DNA of 55,209 nt, taken from contig CALMAK010000009.1 in assembly GCA_937859515.1 (NCBI GenBank), positions 1 through 55,209 on the forward strand, written 5' to 3'. A program made the position numbers and the translations under genes. The notes beneath the pieces were generated by a model. The model had not been told where the DNA came from and did not search any database. It saw only the letters and a list, made by a program, of their open reading frames with translations. The first letter of the stretch is position 1. Each line of letters opens with the position of its first letter. Below are positions 17 through 4,588 of the stretch, piece after piece. The stretch is from an uncultured Candidatus Saccharibacteria bacterium. Lineage in GTDB: Bacteria > Patescibacteriota > Saccharimonadia > Saccharimonadales > Saccharimonadaceae.

Positions 17-997
17 CTACAGCCCACGTGGCGGCTCGCCCTCTGGCGTATCCAGTAACTTCTTACTTTTAATCTCATATCTCTTACCTGTAATTTCACT
101 GGTAATGTAATCTTCATTAATCAAATTGACGAATTTAGTCAGATCACTACCATCCAAAATAATAATTGCACCCGCATCATCCGTCATCAAGTCCAGACCC
201 ATCGTGTCGGCATAGTCGATAGCCTGCTCTTGCGTCACTTCACCTACTTCAAGTTTCTGCAACTTGTTGGCAACACCTTTCTTCTCGCGTACCAAGGCCT
301 GCAAGTCCAGACCATCGGGAAAGCTGAGCTTATATTTCTGTTCGATCTCCTCAACACGCTTATCAGCAATCAATTGTTTTTTGTAGTCATACTGGAATAA
401 TTTTTCGAACTTGGACTGGTTAAAAATAAAGATATCTTTATCAATGATCAGTACCTGGTTATCACTTGGCACTTTCAAACCGACATCCGCCTGAAATGCA
501 CCAAATTTACCTTCGCGAAACTCCCACGCTGTTGCGCCCTTTAAAACGTTGCTTTGTTGAATTGCCTTAATGCTATAATATGCCTTCTTTGGGTCATCTT
601 TGTGAGTGAACTTGGCAACAATCCCCTTGATACGTTTGAACTCATGCTCTTCCTCGCTAAATTCAACCATATCGTGACGCTCATGTTCGATTAAATGTAG
701 CAGTGTCTCGGCACGTCCCACCTTCTCCAGATCAGTCCGCAACAGTACATTCTCCTCATTATCCGAAAGTTCATAATCGCGCACGCTCAGTCCTGTGCCG
801 GCACCCAACGTTACAAAATTAATGTAATCATACAAGAATAACGGCTTGATCTGCGCGTTCAAATCACTGGAAAAGTTCGTGCTATACGGCGTGTAATTTT
901 TGTTAAACAAAAAGAATTCAACATCAAGTTCTTTTTTAATGCCGTCCGTGTTATTTGCCCACAAAAAAATATCTGTCACTTCGCGTGTTTCGTTCAT
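17..997 (-). CDS. DUF4868 (KwaB-like) protein
   Basis: A 326-aa soluble protein with no signal peptide or membrane segment. The second half reads like the DUF4868 family, the family of KwaB in the Kiwa anti-phage system: a block VLIIDKDIFIFNQSKFEKLF near residues 180-200 and a C-terminal block DLTKFVNLINEDYITSEITG near 285-305. DUF4868 proteins are about 300-330 aa, so this one is full length. In Kiwa, KwaB works with a four-helix membrane protein, KwaA. No such gene lies upstream here; the next gene on this strand is an unrelated 158-aa protein, and the window ends 16 bases after the stop. It could therefore be a solo DUF4868 protein. The family call comes from motif memory without a profile search. 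Confidence 0.6.
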   Translation of the reverse strand: MNETREVTDIFLWANNTDGIKKELDVEFFLFNKNYTPYSTNFSSDLNAQIKPLFLYDYINFVTLGAGTGLSVRDYELSDNEENVLLRTDLEKVGRAETLLHLIEHERHDMVEFSEEEHEFKRIKGIVAKFTHKDDPKKAYYSIKAIQQSNVLKGATAWEFREGKFGAFQADVGLKVPSDNQVLIIDKDIFIFNQSKFEKLFQYDYKKQLIADKRVEEIEQKYKLSFPDGLDLQALVREKKGVANKLQKLEVGEVTQEQAIDYADTMGLDLMTDDAGAIIILDGSDLTKFVNLINEDYITSEITGKRYEIKSKKLLDTPEGEPPRGL

Positions 998-2200: not shown

Positions 2201-3214
2201 TTACTTCTCCCAATCAAACCCGTGGCCAAAGTGCCCATACCGCGCCGTCTGCTCGTACTGCGGACGTCGCAGATTCAACCACTTGATAATTCCGTTGGGT
2301 GTTAGGTCATAGCCTACTACCTCTTCAGGCACCCCGTCAACCACAACCGTCGTCTCCAGCGGTTCGACTAAACCAATGGCATAGGCGAGACGCACAAACA
2401 CCTCATTGGCATTGGGTCGCTGGCGTAAATAGTCAACGGCAATTTTACGCGCGATGTACGCCGCGCTACGATCCACTTTACTGGGGTCCTTGCCGCTAAA
2501 CGCCCCACCACCTACAGGAATGCGCGGCCCATAGTTATCAACCGCCAACTTACGCCCCGTCAGGCCAGCATCGGCATCAAACCCGCCGATATCCCAGTCA
2601 CCAGCCGGATTGATATGCAACGTCGGGTTGCTGTTACGATACTTAACAAACAGAGCTCCTGACGCGTTATATTGTTGGGTCCGTCCCCATTCTTTGACCG
2701 CTTCCTCTAACTTGTCACGCGACGCATATTGAAAGCTGGCGACGATACTGGTTATCTCGCCGTCTCGAATCGTCACTTGGGTCTTGCCGTCGTGTGGCCA
2801 GCGCTCGTATAGGTACTGGTTCAACGATCGCGCCAGCACCACCTCCAGTGGTAATAGCTCGGGCGTCTCACGCGTGGCATATCCGACCATCACCCCTTGA
2901 TCACCTGCGCCACCGGTATCGACCCCCGCGGCAATTTCGGGACTCTGCAGGGCGATGTTCTCGATCAGGGTGACGTCTCCAGCAAGTCGCTGTACAATAG
3001 CCGGTATATCAACTTTTTTCGCCTTTGACGTTACCTCTCCTGTCACAAACACGGTACCGTGACCACCAGCAACATCAACGGCAACTCGCGCATTTTTGTC
3101 CTCACCAAGATGCGCGTCCAGTATGGCGTCAGATATTTGATCGCATATTTTATCAGGATGCCCTGGACTCACACTCTCAGCGGTACGGTACTCGGTTGGT
3201 TTGTTTACAGACAT
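2201..3214 (-). CDS. metK: S-adenosylmethionine synthase MetK
   Basis: Makes S-adenosylmethionine from methionine and ATP in the cytosol. The start at 3214 is set by an AAAGGAG Shine-Dalgarno at 3221-3227; a longer frame running upstream would translate the riboswitch and is rejected. The 337-aa product has the family signatures GHPDK (residues 18-22), GAGDQG (102-107) and GGGAFSGKD (235-243), and ends in the typical YGHFG...WEK. It is about 45 aa shorter than the E. coli enzyme, mainly through deletions between residues 60 and 100 and a trimmed C-terminus, which fits the compact proteomes of CPR bacteria. A SAM-I riboswitch and its own promoter lie directly upstream, so the enzyme is feedback-regulated by its product. 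The next gene follows after 6 nt. Confidence 0.97.
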   Translation of the reverse strand: MSVNKPTEYRTAESVSPGHPDKICDQISDAILDAHLGEDKNARVAVDVAGGHGTVFVTGEVTSKAKKVDIPAIVQRLAGDVTLIENIALQSPEIAAGVDTGGAGDQGVMVGYATRETPELLPLEVVLARSLNQYLYERWPHDGKTQVTIRDGEITSIVASFQYASRDKLEEAVKEWGRTQQYNASGALFVKYRNSNPTLHINPAGDWDIGGFDADAGLTGRKLAVDNYGPRIPVGGGAFSGKDPSKVDRSAAYIARKIAVDYLRQRPNANEVFVRLAYAIGLVEPLETTVVVDGVPEEVVGYDLTPNGIIKWLNLRRPQYEQTARYGHFGHGFDWEK

Positions 3215-3280: not shown

Positions 3281-3386
3281 CTCATATCTTTCCTGATGCA
3301 TCAGGTCGGATGAAGCACCTTGTCGCGTCTCCGCAATAGGTTGCCGCTGGGTCAACGGGCCGTATCCCTCGCCAGACTCTTGATAT
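3281..3386 (-). ncRNA. SAM-I (S-box) riboswitch upstream of metK
   Basis: Read on the minus strand, the segment starts with ATATCAAGAG and carries a GAGGG...GGCCC region, the core GCGGCAACC, AAGGTGC, and a terminal GGAAAGATAT. ATATC and GATAT close helix P1. The P4 arm contains the perfect hairpin CCTGATGCATCAGG. This is the order of conserved blocks of the SAM-I family. It sits in the metK leader between a promoter and a hairpin over the metK ribosome site, so SAM binding is expected to shut off metK. Confidence 0.93.
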
Positions 3387-3405
3387 TTAGGTTGTTAACT
3401 ACTTT

Positions 3406-3434: not shown

Positions 3435-3927
3435 CAAGCTTCAGGGCTGGACGACGAGAGACAATTGGCAATGCCTCGGCGCTGTCAAGAAATTCAATTG
3501 GCTGGTCAAGAGAAATACCAATTCGAGGATAAAGCTCACCGAGTAACGCACCATCCTTGGCACGTAACCATTGCTTCTTTGCAAGGCTCGATGAATGGAG
3601 GGCTGTATAGAACATGGCCACTGACACTTGTTTGTCATCAACTATACCAAGATGCCGATGCGACACTCGTGTCACGATGGGTGTTGCAGCGTCTTCAATG
3701 CCCGCAAACTCCACACAGACACTTCCCTCCAAGCCGTTCGCCACGTCCGCGACCGACTCGTGTTTATCCTGGAAAAGCAAAAGTGATGGTGACTGAATAA
3801 ATAGGGTCTTCTCTCCTATCTTTTTATGCAAAAAGTATTCAATCGCATCATCGGACTCATTCCCACCCGCGTACTCCCGCAGAGTTGTGGTATATGAACG
3901 CTCTGGTACTAGCTGCAGTCTACCCAT
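3427..3927 (-). CDS. Hypothetical protein, 166 aa, in a SAM-riboswitch operon
   Basis: Unrecognised soluble protein with a strand-rich composition, no membrane segment and one cysteine. Its start codon overlaps the stop of the YbaK-like gene by one base (TAATG), with GAGGAGG just upstream inside that gene, so translation is probably coupled. It is the second gene of a transcript that begins with a SAM-I riboswitch. The metK promoter -35 overlaps its stop codon, so metK may be read both from its own promoter and by run-through from this gene. Function is unknown; the context suggests a link to SAM, methionine or translation quality control. Confidence 0.65.
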   Translation of the reverse strand: MGRLQLVPERSYTTTLREYAGGNESDDAIEYFLHKKIGEKTLFIQSPSLLLFQDKHESVADVANGLEGSVCVEFAGIEDAATPIVTRVSHRHLGIVDDKQVSVAMFYTALHSSSLAKKQWLRAKDGALLGELYPRIGISLDQPIEFLDSAEALPIVSRRPALKLVD

Positions 3928-4460
3928 TACGTCCTCCTCGCTATATTGCCTACGACGGTAGCATGGGTAATATGCACCCCTACTTCACCGTCAACCACCA
4001 GTTTCGATGGGCGGATTCCGCTGCCTAGGTACAGCTTCGGAATGCCCAGCACCCGTTCATCAATAATGAGCGGCCAGGTCTCGGGCAATCCAATCGGCGA
4101 CATTCCTCCACTCTCCATCCCTGTTGCCGCTACTGCCTTTTCAGTTGGCGCAAACGATACTTTGTATGCGCCCAAGACCTTTTTGATTGCCCCGTTCAGA
4201 TCAGCGCGGCTGTCCGCCAACACCAATACGGCAGCAAATTCGCGTTCGGCGTTCTTGGTTTTTCGCCATTCTACTACTACCACATTCGCTGTTGTATCGA
4301 GTGGTATGTCATACGTGGCTGCCCATTTGTCCGTATCCGCCAACTCGTCGGCGTTCTTGGTCACCCCATGGATCAACGTTTCTGGCAATTGCTTAAGAGC
4401 CTCTCGTACAGGGTGGGCCAGTAATTCCGTCTGCTTCCAGTCATAGATTTTTAATGCCAT
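3927..4460 (-). CDS. YbaK/ProX-like aminoacyl-tRNA deacylase
   Basis: A 177-aa protein whose C-terminal two thirds match the YbaK/ProRS-INS editing-domain family. After FAAVLVLADSRADLN (residues 75-89) comes the characteristic ESGGMSPIGLP (116-126) and a following IIDERVLG strand. The family hydrolyses mischarged tRNAs such as Cys- or Ala-tRNA(Pro); substrate specificity cannot be read here. It is first in a two-gene operon with TAATG overlap. A SAM-I riboswitch occupies its whole leader, and its Shine-Dalgarno AAGGAG (4475-4470) lies inside the aptamer. SAM control of a trans-editing factor is unusual. Deacylases clearing sulfur-amino-acid mischarging would be one rationale, which is inference. 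Confidence 0.8.
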   Translation of the reverse strand: MALKIYDWKQTELLAHPVREALKQLPETLIHGVTKNADELADTDKWAATYDIPLDTTANVVVVEWRKTKNAEREFAAVLVLADSRADLNGAIKKVLGAYKVSFAPTEKAVAATGMESGGMSPIGLPETWPLIIDERVLGIPKLYLGSGIRPSKLVVDGEVGVHITHATVVGNIARRT

Positions 4461-4463
4461 AGT

Positions 4464-4563
4464 ATATCTCTCCTTTCGGCTGGAAGAGGCACCTTGTCCT
4501 TGGCGAGCGACAGGTTGCCGAGCAGCTACTGTCGGGCCAGTTCCCTTGCTGCTCTCTTGATAT
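4464..4563 (-). ncRNA. SAM-I-type riboswitch with embedded ribosome site
   Basis: On the minus strand it runs ATATCAAGAGAG, then a P2 stem GAGCAGC/GCTGCTC around GGGAACTGGCCC, the core TCGGCAACC, a P3 stem TGTC/GACA, AAGGTGCC, and a P4 stem CTCTTCC/GGAGAG, ending GATAT, which pairs with the 5' ATATC as P1. The P4 3' strand contains AAAGGAG at the correct distance (9 nt) from the ATG at 4460. Ligand binding would therefore sequester the ribosome site directly, with no separate expression platform. Confidence 0.9.
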
Positions 4564-4579
4564 GGTGGTTACTTTTCCC

Positions 4580-4588
4580 AGTATACCA
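4580..4588 (-). promoter_or_regulatory. Extended -10 promoter for the second SAM riboswitch
   Basis: TGGTATACT (4588-4580) is an extended -10. A start near 4573 would give a leader beginning about 10 nt before helix P1. No good -35 is visible. Confidence 0.55.

Follow-up and report, generated by a model that had tools for sequence, protein, structure and literature searches.

A leader on the minus strand of a 55,209-nt stretch of DNA from an uncultured Candidatus Saccharibacteria bacterium (the whole stretch analysed, hereafter the window) is, to judge from its sequence, probably a SAM-I riboswitch acting on translation, with repression by direct occlusion (rough probability 0.7), its ribosome-binding site lying within the aptamer itself. 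The gene behind it encodes a protein with an aminoacyl-tRNA editing domain of the YbaK/INS type. Compact leaders of the same geometry are widespread before metK in Saccharibacteria, a finding of wider reach than the ybaK leader itself, whose unique feature among the genomes surveyed is its target gene and not its compact design.

A SAM-I aptamer enclosing the ribosome site

The elements of the locus, all on the minus strand of the window, are the following.

4580..4588, minus: possible extended -10 promoter TGGTATACT, as read from the sequence
4461..4566, minus: SAM-I riboswitch aptamer (RF00162), compact form, from the covariance match
4559..4563, minus: P1 5' strand AUAUC, from the RF00162 alignment and the sequence
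4520..4554, minus: P2, GAGCAGC/GCUGCUC (7 bp) plus GGG/CCC, from the alignment and the sequence
within 4520..4554, minus: P2 internal loop AA / GACAGUA, replacing the standard kink-turn
4488..4519, minus: P3, with core GGCAACC ... GGUGCC, from the RF00162 alignment
4472..4479, minus: P4, CC-GAAA-GG, 2 bp, its 3' strand within the Shine-Dalgarno, from the RF00162 alignment
4470..4475, minus: Shine-Dalgarno AAGGAG, 9 nt from the AUG, from the sequence and the same place in compact relatives
4464..4468, minus: P1 3' strand GAUAU, from the RF00162 alignment and the sequence
3927..4460, minus: gene 1, PF04073 (YbaK/INS-type aminoacyl-tRNA editing domain) protein, 177 aa
3427..3927, minus: gene 2, 166-aa orphan protein, overlapping gene 1 by TAATG
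3281..3389, minus: second SAM-I aptamer, of the ordinary long form, before metK (55 bits)
2201..3214, minus: metK, S-adenosylmethionine synthetase (PF00438/PF02772/PF02773)

A SAM-I-type aptamer had been proposed at 4464-4563 in a first-pass annotation, with a covariance search as one check. This search yields a full-length RF00162 match (model positions 1-108) on the minus strand at 4566-4461, so that the proposed span was correct to within a few bases. The match scores 40.0 bits, with an E-value of 4.3e-7 for the 1.9 kb searched and of 4.9e-8 for the whole 907-kb genome, and the latter value indicates that the resemblance to SAM-I is not due to chance. Since the score falls 4.4 bits below the RF00162 gathering score of 44.4, a default Rfam scan missed this element and gave only that at 3389-3281. 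In clan competition RF00162 remained the best model at the locus, the SAM-I-IV variant and SAM-IV models performing no better. Of 33 columns conserved at 90% or more among 194 aptamers of the order, 30 are retained, and the binding core, comprising AAGA (J1/2), GGCAACC and GGUGC, is intact. The three deviations are two kink-turn columns and a single A to G change near the 3' end, the latter also present in the metK leader of genome G028, which has the same AAGGAGAGAU.

Two of these deviations concern the kink-turn. Its 3' side reads GAC-AGUA in place of NNN-GA, and AG stands where the 3' GA would be (two columns with 95% and 99% conservation), so that P2 of the ybaK leader lacks a kink-turn of the standard kind. 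However, the simple motif is frequent and not universal in the order, being absent in 14 of 204 leaders inspected, most of these before metK, and similar loops occur in other SAM-I leaders (GUU-AGUA in G484, GUU-AUAA in G018, and also in G472). The deviation thus calls for caution without refuting the assignment. Within the order, G484, G018, G472, G398 and G478 have leaders in which one strand of the P2 internal loop is longer (AGUA, AUAA and similar) and replaces the GA kink-turn.

Downstream of the binding core the aptamer merges with the translation start. P4 is formed by CC 4479-4478 and GG 4473-4472 closing a GAAA loop, as read from the sequence, and this GG belongs to the Shine-Dalgarno AAGGAG. 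The P1 3' strand ends at 4464 and is followed by ACT and by ATG 4460-4458, placing the AUG 3 nt behind P1. This ATG is the first start codon in the frame of the ybaK-like gene, and homology of the protein begins at residues 3-14 in its closest relatives, so that the start is secure. Neither a terminator nor a separate anti-SD hairpin was found after the aptamer, and a terminator scan of the strand reported no terminator-like site. The three architectural claims of the first-pass annotation, namely an aptamer ending 3 nt before the start codon, a Shine-Dalgarno within P4 and the absence of a separate expression platform, are all borne out, and a ribosome site within the ligand-binding fold would place the leader in the direct-occlusion group. 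As to transcription, the possible extended -10 TGGTATACT would put the start some 6-9 nt upstream of the aptamer; no -35 match accompanies it, and a promoter scan did not report it.

Compact leaders before metK

SAM-I matches were found in at least 112 of 198 genomes in a survey of the family and in at least 116 of 198 in a survey of the order, which overlaps the family draw; both counts are lower bounds, since stricter filters were applied to these large draws. From the two surveys 204 SAM-I leaders were fetched and inspected. In most, an anti-SD/SD hairpin (CTCCTTT...AAAGGAG) sits in a linker of ~40-70 nt, and 31 are compact, having no linker. In the compact leaders the AUG is either part of the P1 3' strand (GAUAUG) or comes right behind it, and the Shine-Dalgarno includes the P4 3' strand, as illustrated by CCGACCGAAAGGAGAGAUGUUAUG in G028 and CCGACCAGAAAGGAAAGAUAUG in G115. 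All but one of the 31 belong to the window's family, the ybaK leader included, and 30 of 31 precede metK, the sole exception being the ybaK leader. In a handful of compact leaders from one genus MetK homology begins only 15-20 codons past the presumed AUG, and that of G170 has no in-frame start, making these start assignments less certain. Comparison of homologous leaders, a further check suggested in the first-pass annotation, found the P4 3' strand to be the GG of the Shine-Dalgarno in every aligned compact relative. The P4 CC/GG pairs are invariant across compact leaders, and hence offer no covariation for P4. The same annotation had regarded both the design and the regulated gene as unusual; the latter holds, as no other surveyed genome has such a target, but the compact design recurs before metK in many Saccharibacteria.

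In the order survey the compact start position co-occurs with an A-rich Shine-Dalgarno in a P4 of 2-3 bp. A signature, GGTG[CG][CT]NNNT[CT]CNNCC-(1-6)-AAAGG-(2-4)-AGAT[AG]T, is found in 28 of the 31 compact leaders versus 0 of 173 others (Fisher 2e-31, relatedness ignored). Scanning GTDB contigs with it returned at least 115 loci. Among the matches listed, at least 98 belong to the compact metK type (97 with a Saccharibacteria label and one from an unclassified bin), and in 95 of the 98 listed an AUG in frame with metK coincides with the P1 strand or comes immediately after it. Seven further loci, from Gracilibacteria and other Patescibacteria, also precede metK but have a distant AUG, the remaining ten are unrelated or differently built sequences, and none of those listed has ybaK behind it. 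Compact metK leaders were also noted among loci L019, L028, L029, L063 and L011, beside the at least 98 GTDB loci (within L226-L340). The mean computed folding energy of the P4 region is -2.9 kcal/mol in compact leaders versus -5.8 in the others, and a weaker P4 fold is what a switch would need if the ribosome must win without SAM. On a FastTree phylogeny of 177 MetK proteins the compact state requires at least six changes, four of them on well-supported branches, implying that the arrangement was gained or lost repeatedly.

SAM-I leaders of the order also precede other genes, judged by eye from their translations. Methionine-synthase-like and cystathionine gamma-synthase-like enzymes and a homocysteine-methyltransferase-like protein follow such leaders in G445:C4, G397:C172, G510:C8, G463:C20, G529:C17 and G402:C26, among others. 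An unusual target is a 205-209 aa protein with the look of an AlkB-type 2-oxoglutarate dioxygenase (G061:C46:3097-3207 and G399:C20:53644-53753). A 172-174 aa protein without an assigned family follows the leader in G122:C36 and G138:C66, with metK next in G138, and a 209-222 aa protein resembling PAPS/APS reductases does so in G078:C156 and G033:C10.

Genes behind the two leaders of the window

Gene 1 matches PF04073 with 61 bits against a gathering score of 25.5 (E 1.5e-16), and its product is the only PF04073 protein found in its own genome. It is thus a member of the YbaK/INS superfamily by the Pfam cut-off, unlike YbaK itself in two respects. Its scores lie far below the equivalog cut-offs (37.5 versus 153.25 bits for TIGR00011, 27.4 versus 243 for NF007951), so that it does not reach the curated score of the YbaK Cys-tRNA(Pro) deacylase, and at the alignment position presumed here to be that of the YbaK catalytic lysine it has Asn, as do all eight aligned relatives from Saccharibacteria. 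It shows weak similarity to solved structures of YbaK and YbaK-like proteins. The 'tRNA-editing factor' named in the first-pass annotation thus holds at the level of the domain. Gene 2 has no Pfam, NCBIfam or PHROG match and no relatives in 100 other genomes of the window's family; an AlphaFold model, computed without relatives, has a pLDDT of 30.

The metK aptamer at 3389-3281, which the earlier annotation had not mentioned, lies 1.2 kb downstream of the ybaK leader. It is followed by an anti-SD/SD hairpin, ACTCCTTT...GAAAGGAG, and has its own promoter-like site at 3434-3406. MetE was not found in the genome. Downstream of metK lies a PF16162 (KwaB-like) gene (window 17-997, minus strand), which is 73-96% identical in relatives and occupies the same place beside metK; a resident gene seems likelier than a mobile defence gene.

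The ybaK arrangement is a single case. The gene 1 protein occurs in nine other genomes of 394 in the window's family, none of the nine loci has an RF00162 match beside it, SAM-I before ybaK was seen in no further genome of the surveys, and a search of GTDB contigs with back-translated peptides found no ybaK relatives. The congener G045 also has an rnaseH-metK interval, occupied there by two other genes. Together with the nine relatives, this points to the cassette of compact SAM-I leader, ybaK and orphan gene as a local novelty, and, with a single instance, conservation cannot vouch for this copy of the leader. Derivation of its aptamer by recent duplication of the genome's own metK aptamer was considered and is unsupported, the two being 57% identical and the metK aptamer ranking 43 of 193 by similarity.

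Proposed mechanism and alternatives

The basis for direct occlusion consists of homology to SAM-I, the geometry of the leader, and the recurrence of that geometry ahead of metK across many Saccharibacteria. In the proposed mechanism binding of SAM would lock both P1 and P4. The Shine-Dalgarno GG would then be tied up in P4, and the bases leading to within 3 nt of the AUG in P1, and the 30S subunit would thereby be blocked on the PF04073 gene and the overlapping orphan gene. When SAM is scarce, the 5-bp P1 and the 2-bp P4 would open and translation would begin. SAM binding, the OFF direction, coupling to gene 2 and production of the editing-type protein at low SAM or methionine are predictions of this scheme, the OFF direction being suggested by SAM-I biology together with the metK relatives. 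Thermodynamic folding, which ignores SAM and tertiary contacts, left the Shine-Dalgarno GG mostly paired whether or not the aptamer helices were enforced, and by the same approach the stability of the leader relative to shuffled sequences is not unusual (z -0.78). A 16S-tail pattern for the anti-SD was not found in the organism's own draft genome.

It is also conceivable, if unlikely, that the leader is a relic, brought along with the ybaK cassette or left before it, which binds SAM poorly and serves as a plain 5' leader with a Shine-Dalgarno. Its score is the lower of the genome's two aptamers (40 versus 55 bits), its kink-turn signature is lost and its cassette is found in no second genome; the different genes in the G045 interval moreover mark the cassette as recent and unproven. 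Yet the AAGA, GGCAACC and GGUGC core is intact, decay would hardly be expected to leave P2 with seven perfect pairs, and kink-turn variants comparable to this one exist in the SAM-I leaders of G484, G018 and G472. A switch of opposite sign or other mechanism appears considerably less probable still. Here a hairpin CUCUUCC/GGAGAG would hide the Shine-Dalgarno without SAM and be broken by SAM (ON), or a CCAUA/UAUGG helix would hide the start codon. Both helices are present in the minimum-energy fold of the leader, but their probabilities drop to about 0.1-0.26 in a longer transcript, and the GG would still be base-paired within P4 once SAM is bound. Compact relatives, too, have an equivalent UUCC/GGAA pairing and yet control metK, a gene normally repressed by SAM via SAM-I.

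Transcription attenuation, the usual SAM-I mode outside this order and the one known from SAM-I riboswitches of Firmicutes, is very improbable at this locus in spite of being so common elsewhere, given that the coding sequence begins 3 nt past P1, that the strand has no terminator-like site and that the other SAM-I leaders of the order are of the SD/anti-SD type. Of the mechanisms considered, direct occlusion agrees best with the anatomy of the leader.

Relation to known riboswitches and significance

SAM-I is a textbook riboswitch with a separable aptamer and expression platform. The ybaK leader shares with SAM-I (S-box, RF00162) the whole consensus aptamer, P1 to P4, the conserved core and the position in a 5' leader. 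It differs in that known elements, and the genome's own metK leader, follow the aptamer with a distinct platform (a terminator or an SD/anti-SD element), whereas here the Shine-Dalgarno is in P4, the AUG lies directly behind P1, P4 has 2 bp and the kink-turn is non-standard. SAM-IXcc of Xanthomonas campestris is a SAM-I aptamer that acts mainly on translation, but its Shine-Dalgarno and AUG are in a hairpin of a separate platform outside the aptamer (PMC7270179), a platform that the ybaK leader does not have. A 2024 review lists SAM-II/V, SAM-III (SMK), SAM/SAH, some preQ1-I and preQ1-II as direct-occlusion riboswitches, and SAM-I is absent from its list (PMC10907184). These have in common with the ybaK leader a ribosome site within the aptamer and the same repression logic, but their folds differ (H-type pseudoknots, three-way junctions). 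A precedent for the choice of gene comes from guanidine riboswitches that control the canavanyl-tRNA deacylase CtdA, likewise a standalone tRNA-editing protein, albeit with another ligand, another riboswitch class and a B3/4 domain instead of INS/YbaK (PMC10018355). Searches of open-licence papers, in which absence is weak evidence, found none on SAM riboswitches in Saccharibacteria/CPR and none on YbaK under a SAM riboswitch. Within these limits of the literature the compact form is a variant, as yet undescribed, of a known class, and within those of the surveys the ybaK leader is the sole use of it found outside metK.

Natural SAM-I riboswitches whose aptamer doubles as the platform would show a large junction aptamer doing the job of SAM-II and SAM-III, and would provide a SAM-controlled leader of ~100 nt without a linker. 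Such a leader could also be a tool for gene expression in Patescibacteria, a group that still lacks controllable expression (PMC11665869).

On balance it appears that Saccharibacteria repeatedly made the SAM-I aptamer a direct-occlusion switch, in which the purine-rich P4/J4/1 strand is the Shine-Dalgarno and the P1 3' strand the start-codon site, and that this device has here moved to a gene of the tRNA-editing type, adding translation fidelity to the SAM regulon. As a guess at the benefit, mischarging by methionine- or cysteine-related amino acids might increase as methionine or SAM falls. To our knowledge there is no earlier link between SAM sensing and a standalone protein of the tRNA-editing type; the ybaK case, if true, would be the first, in a genome with a single PF04073 protein found and no MetE found.
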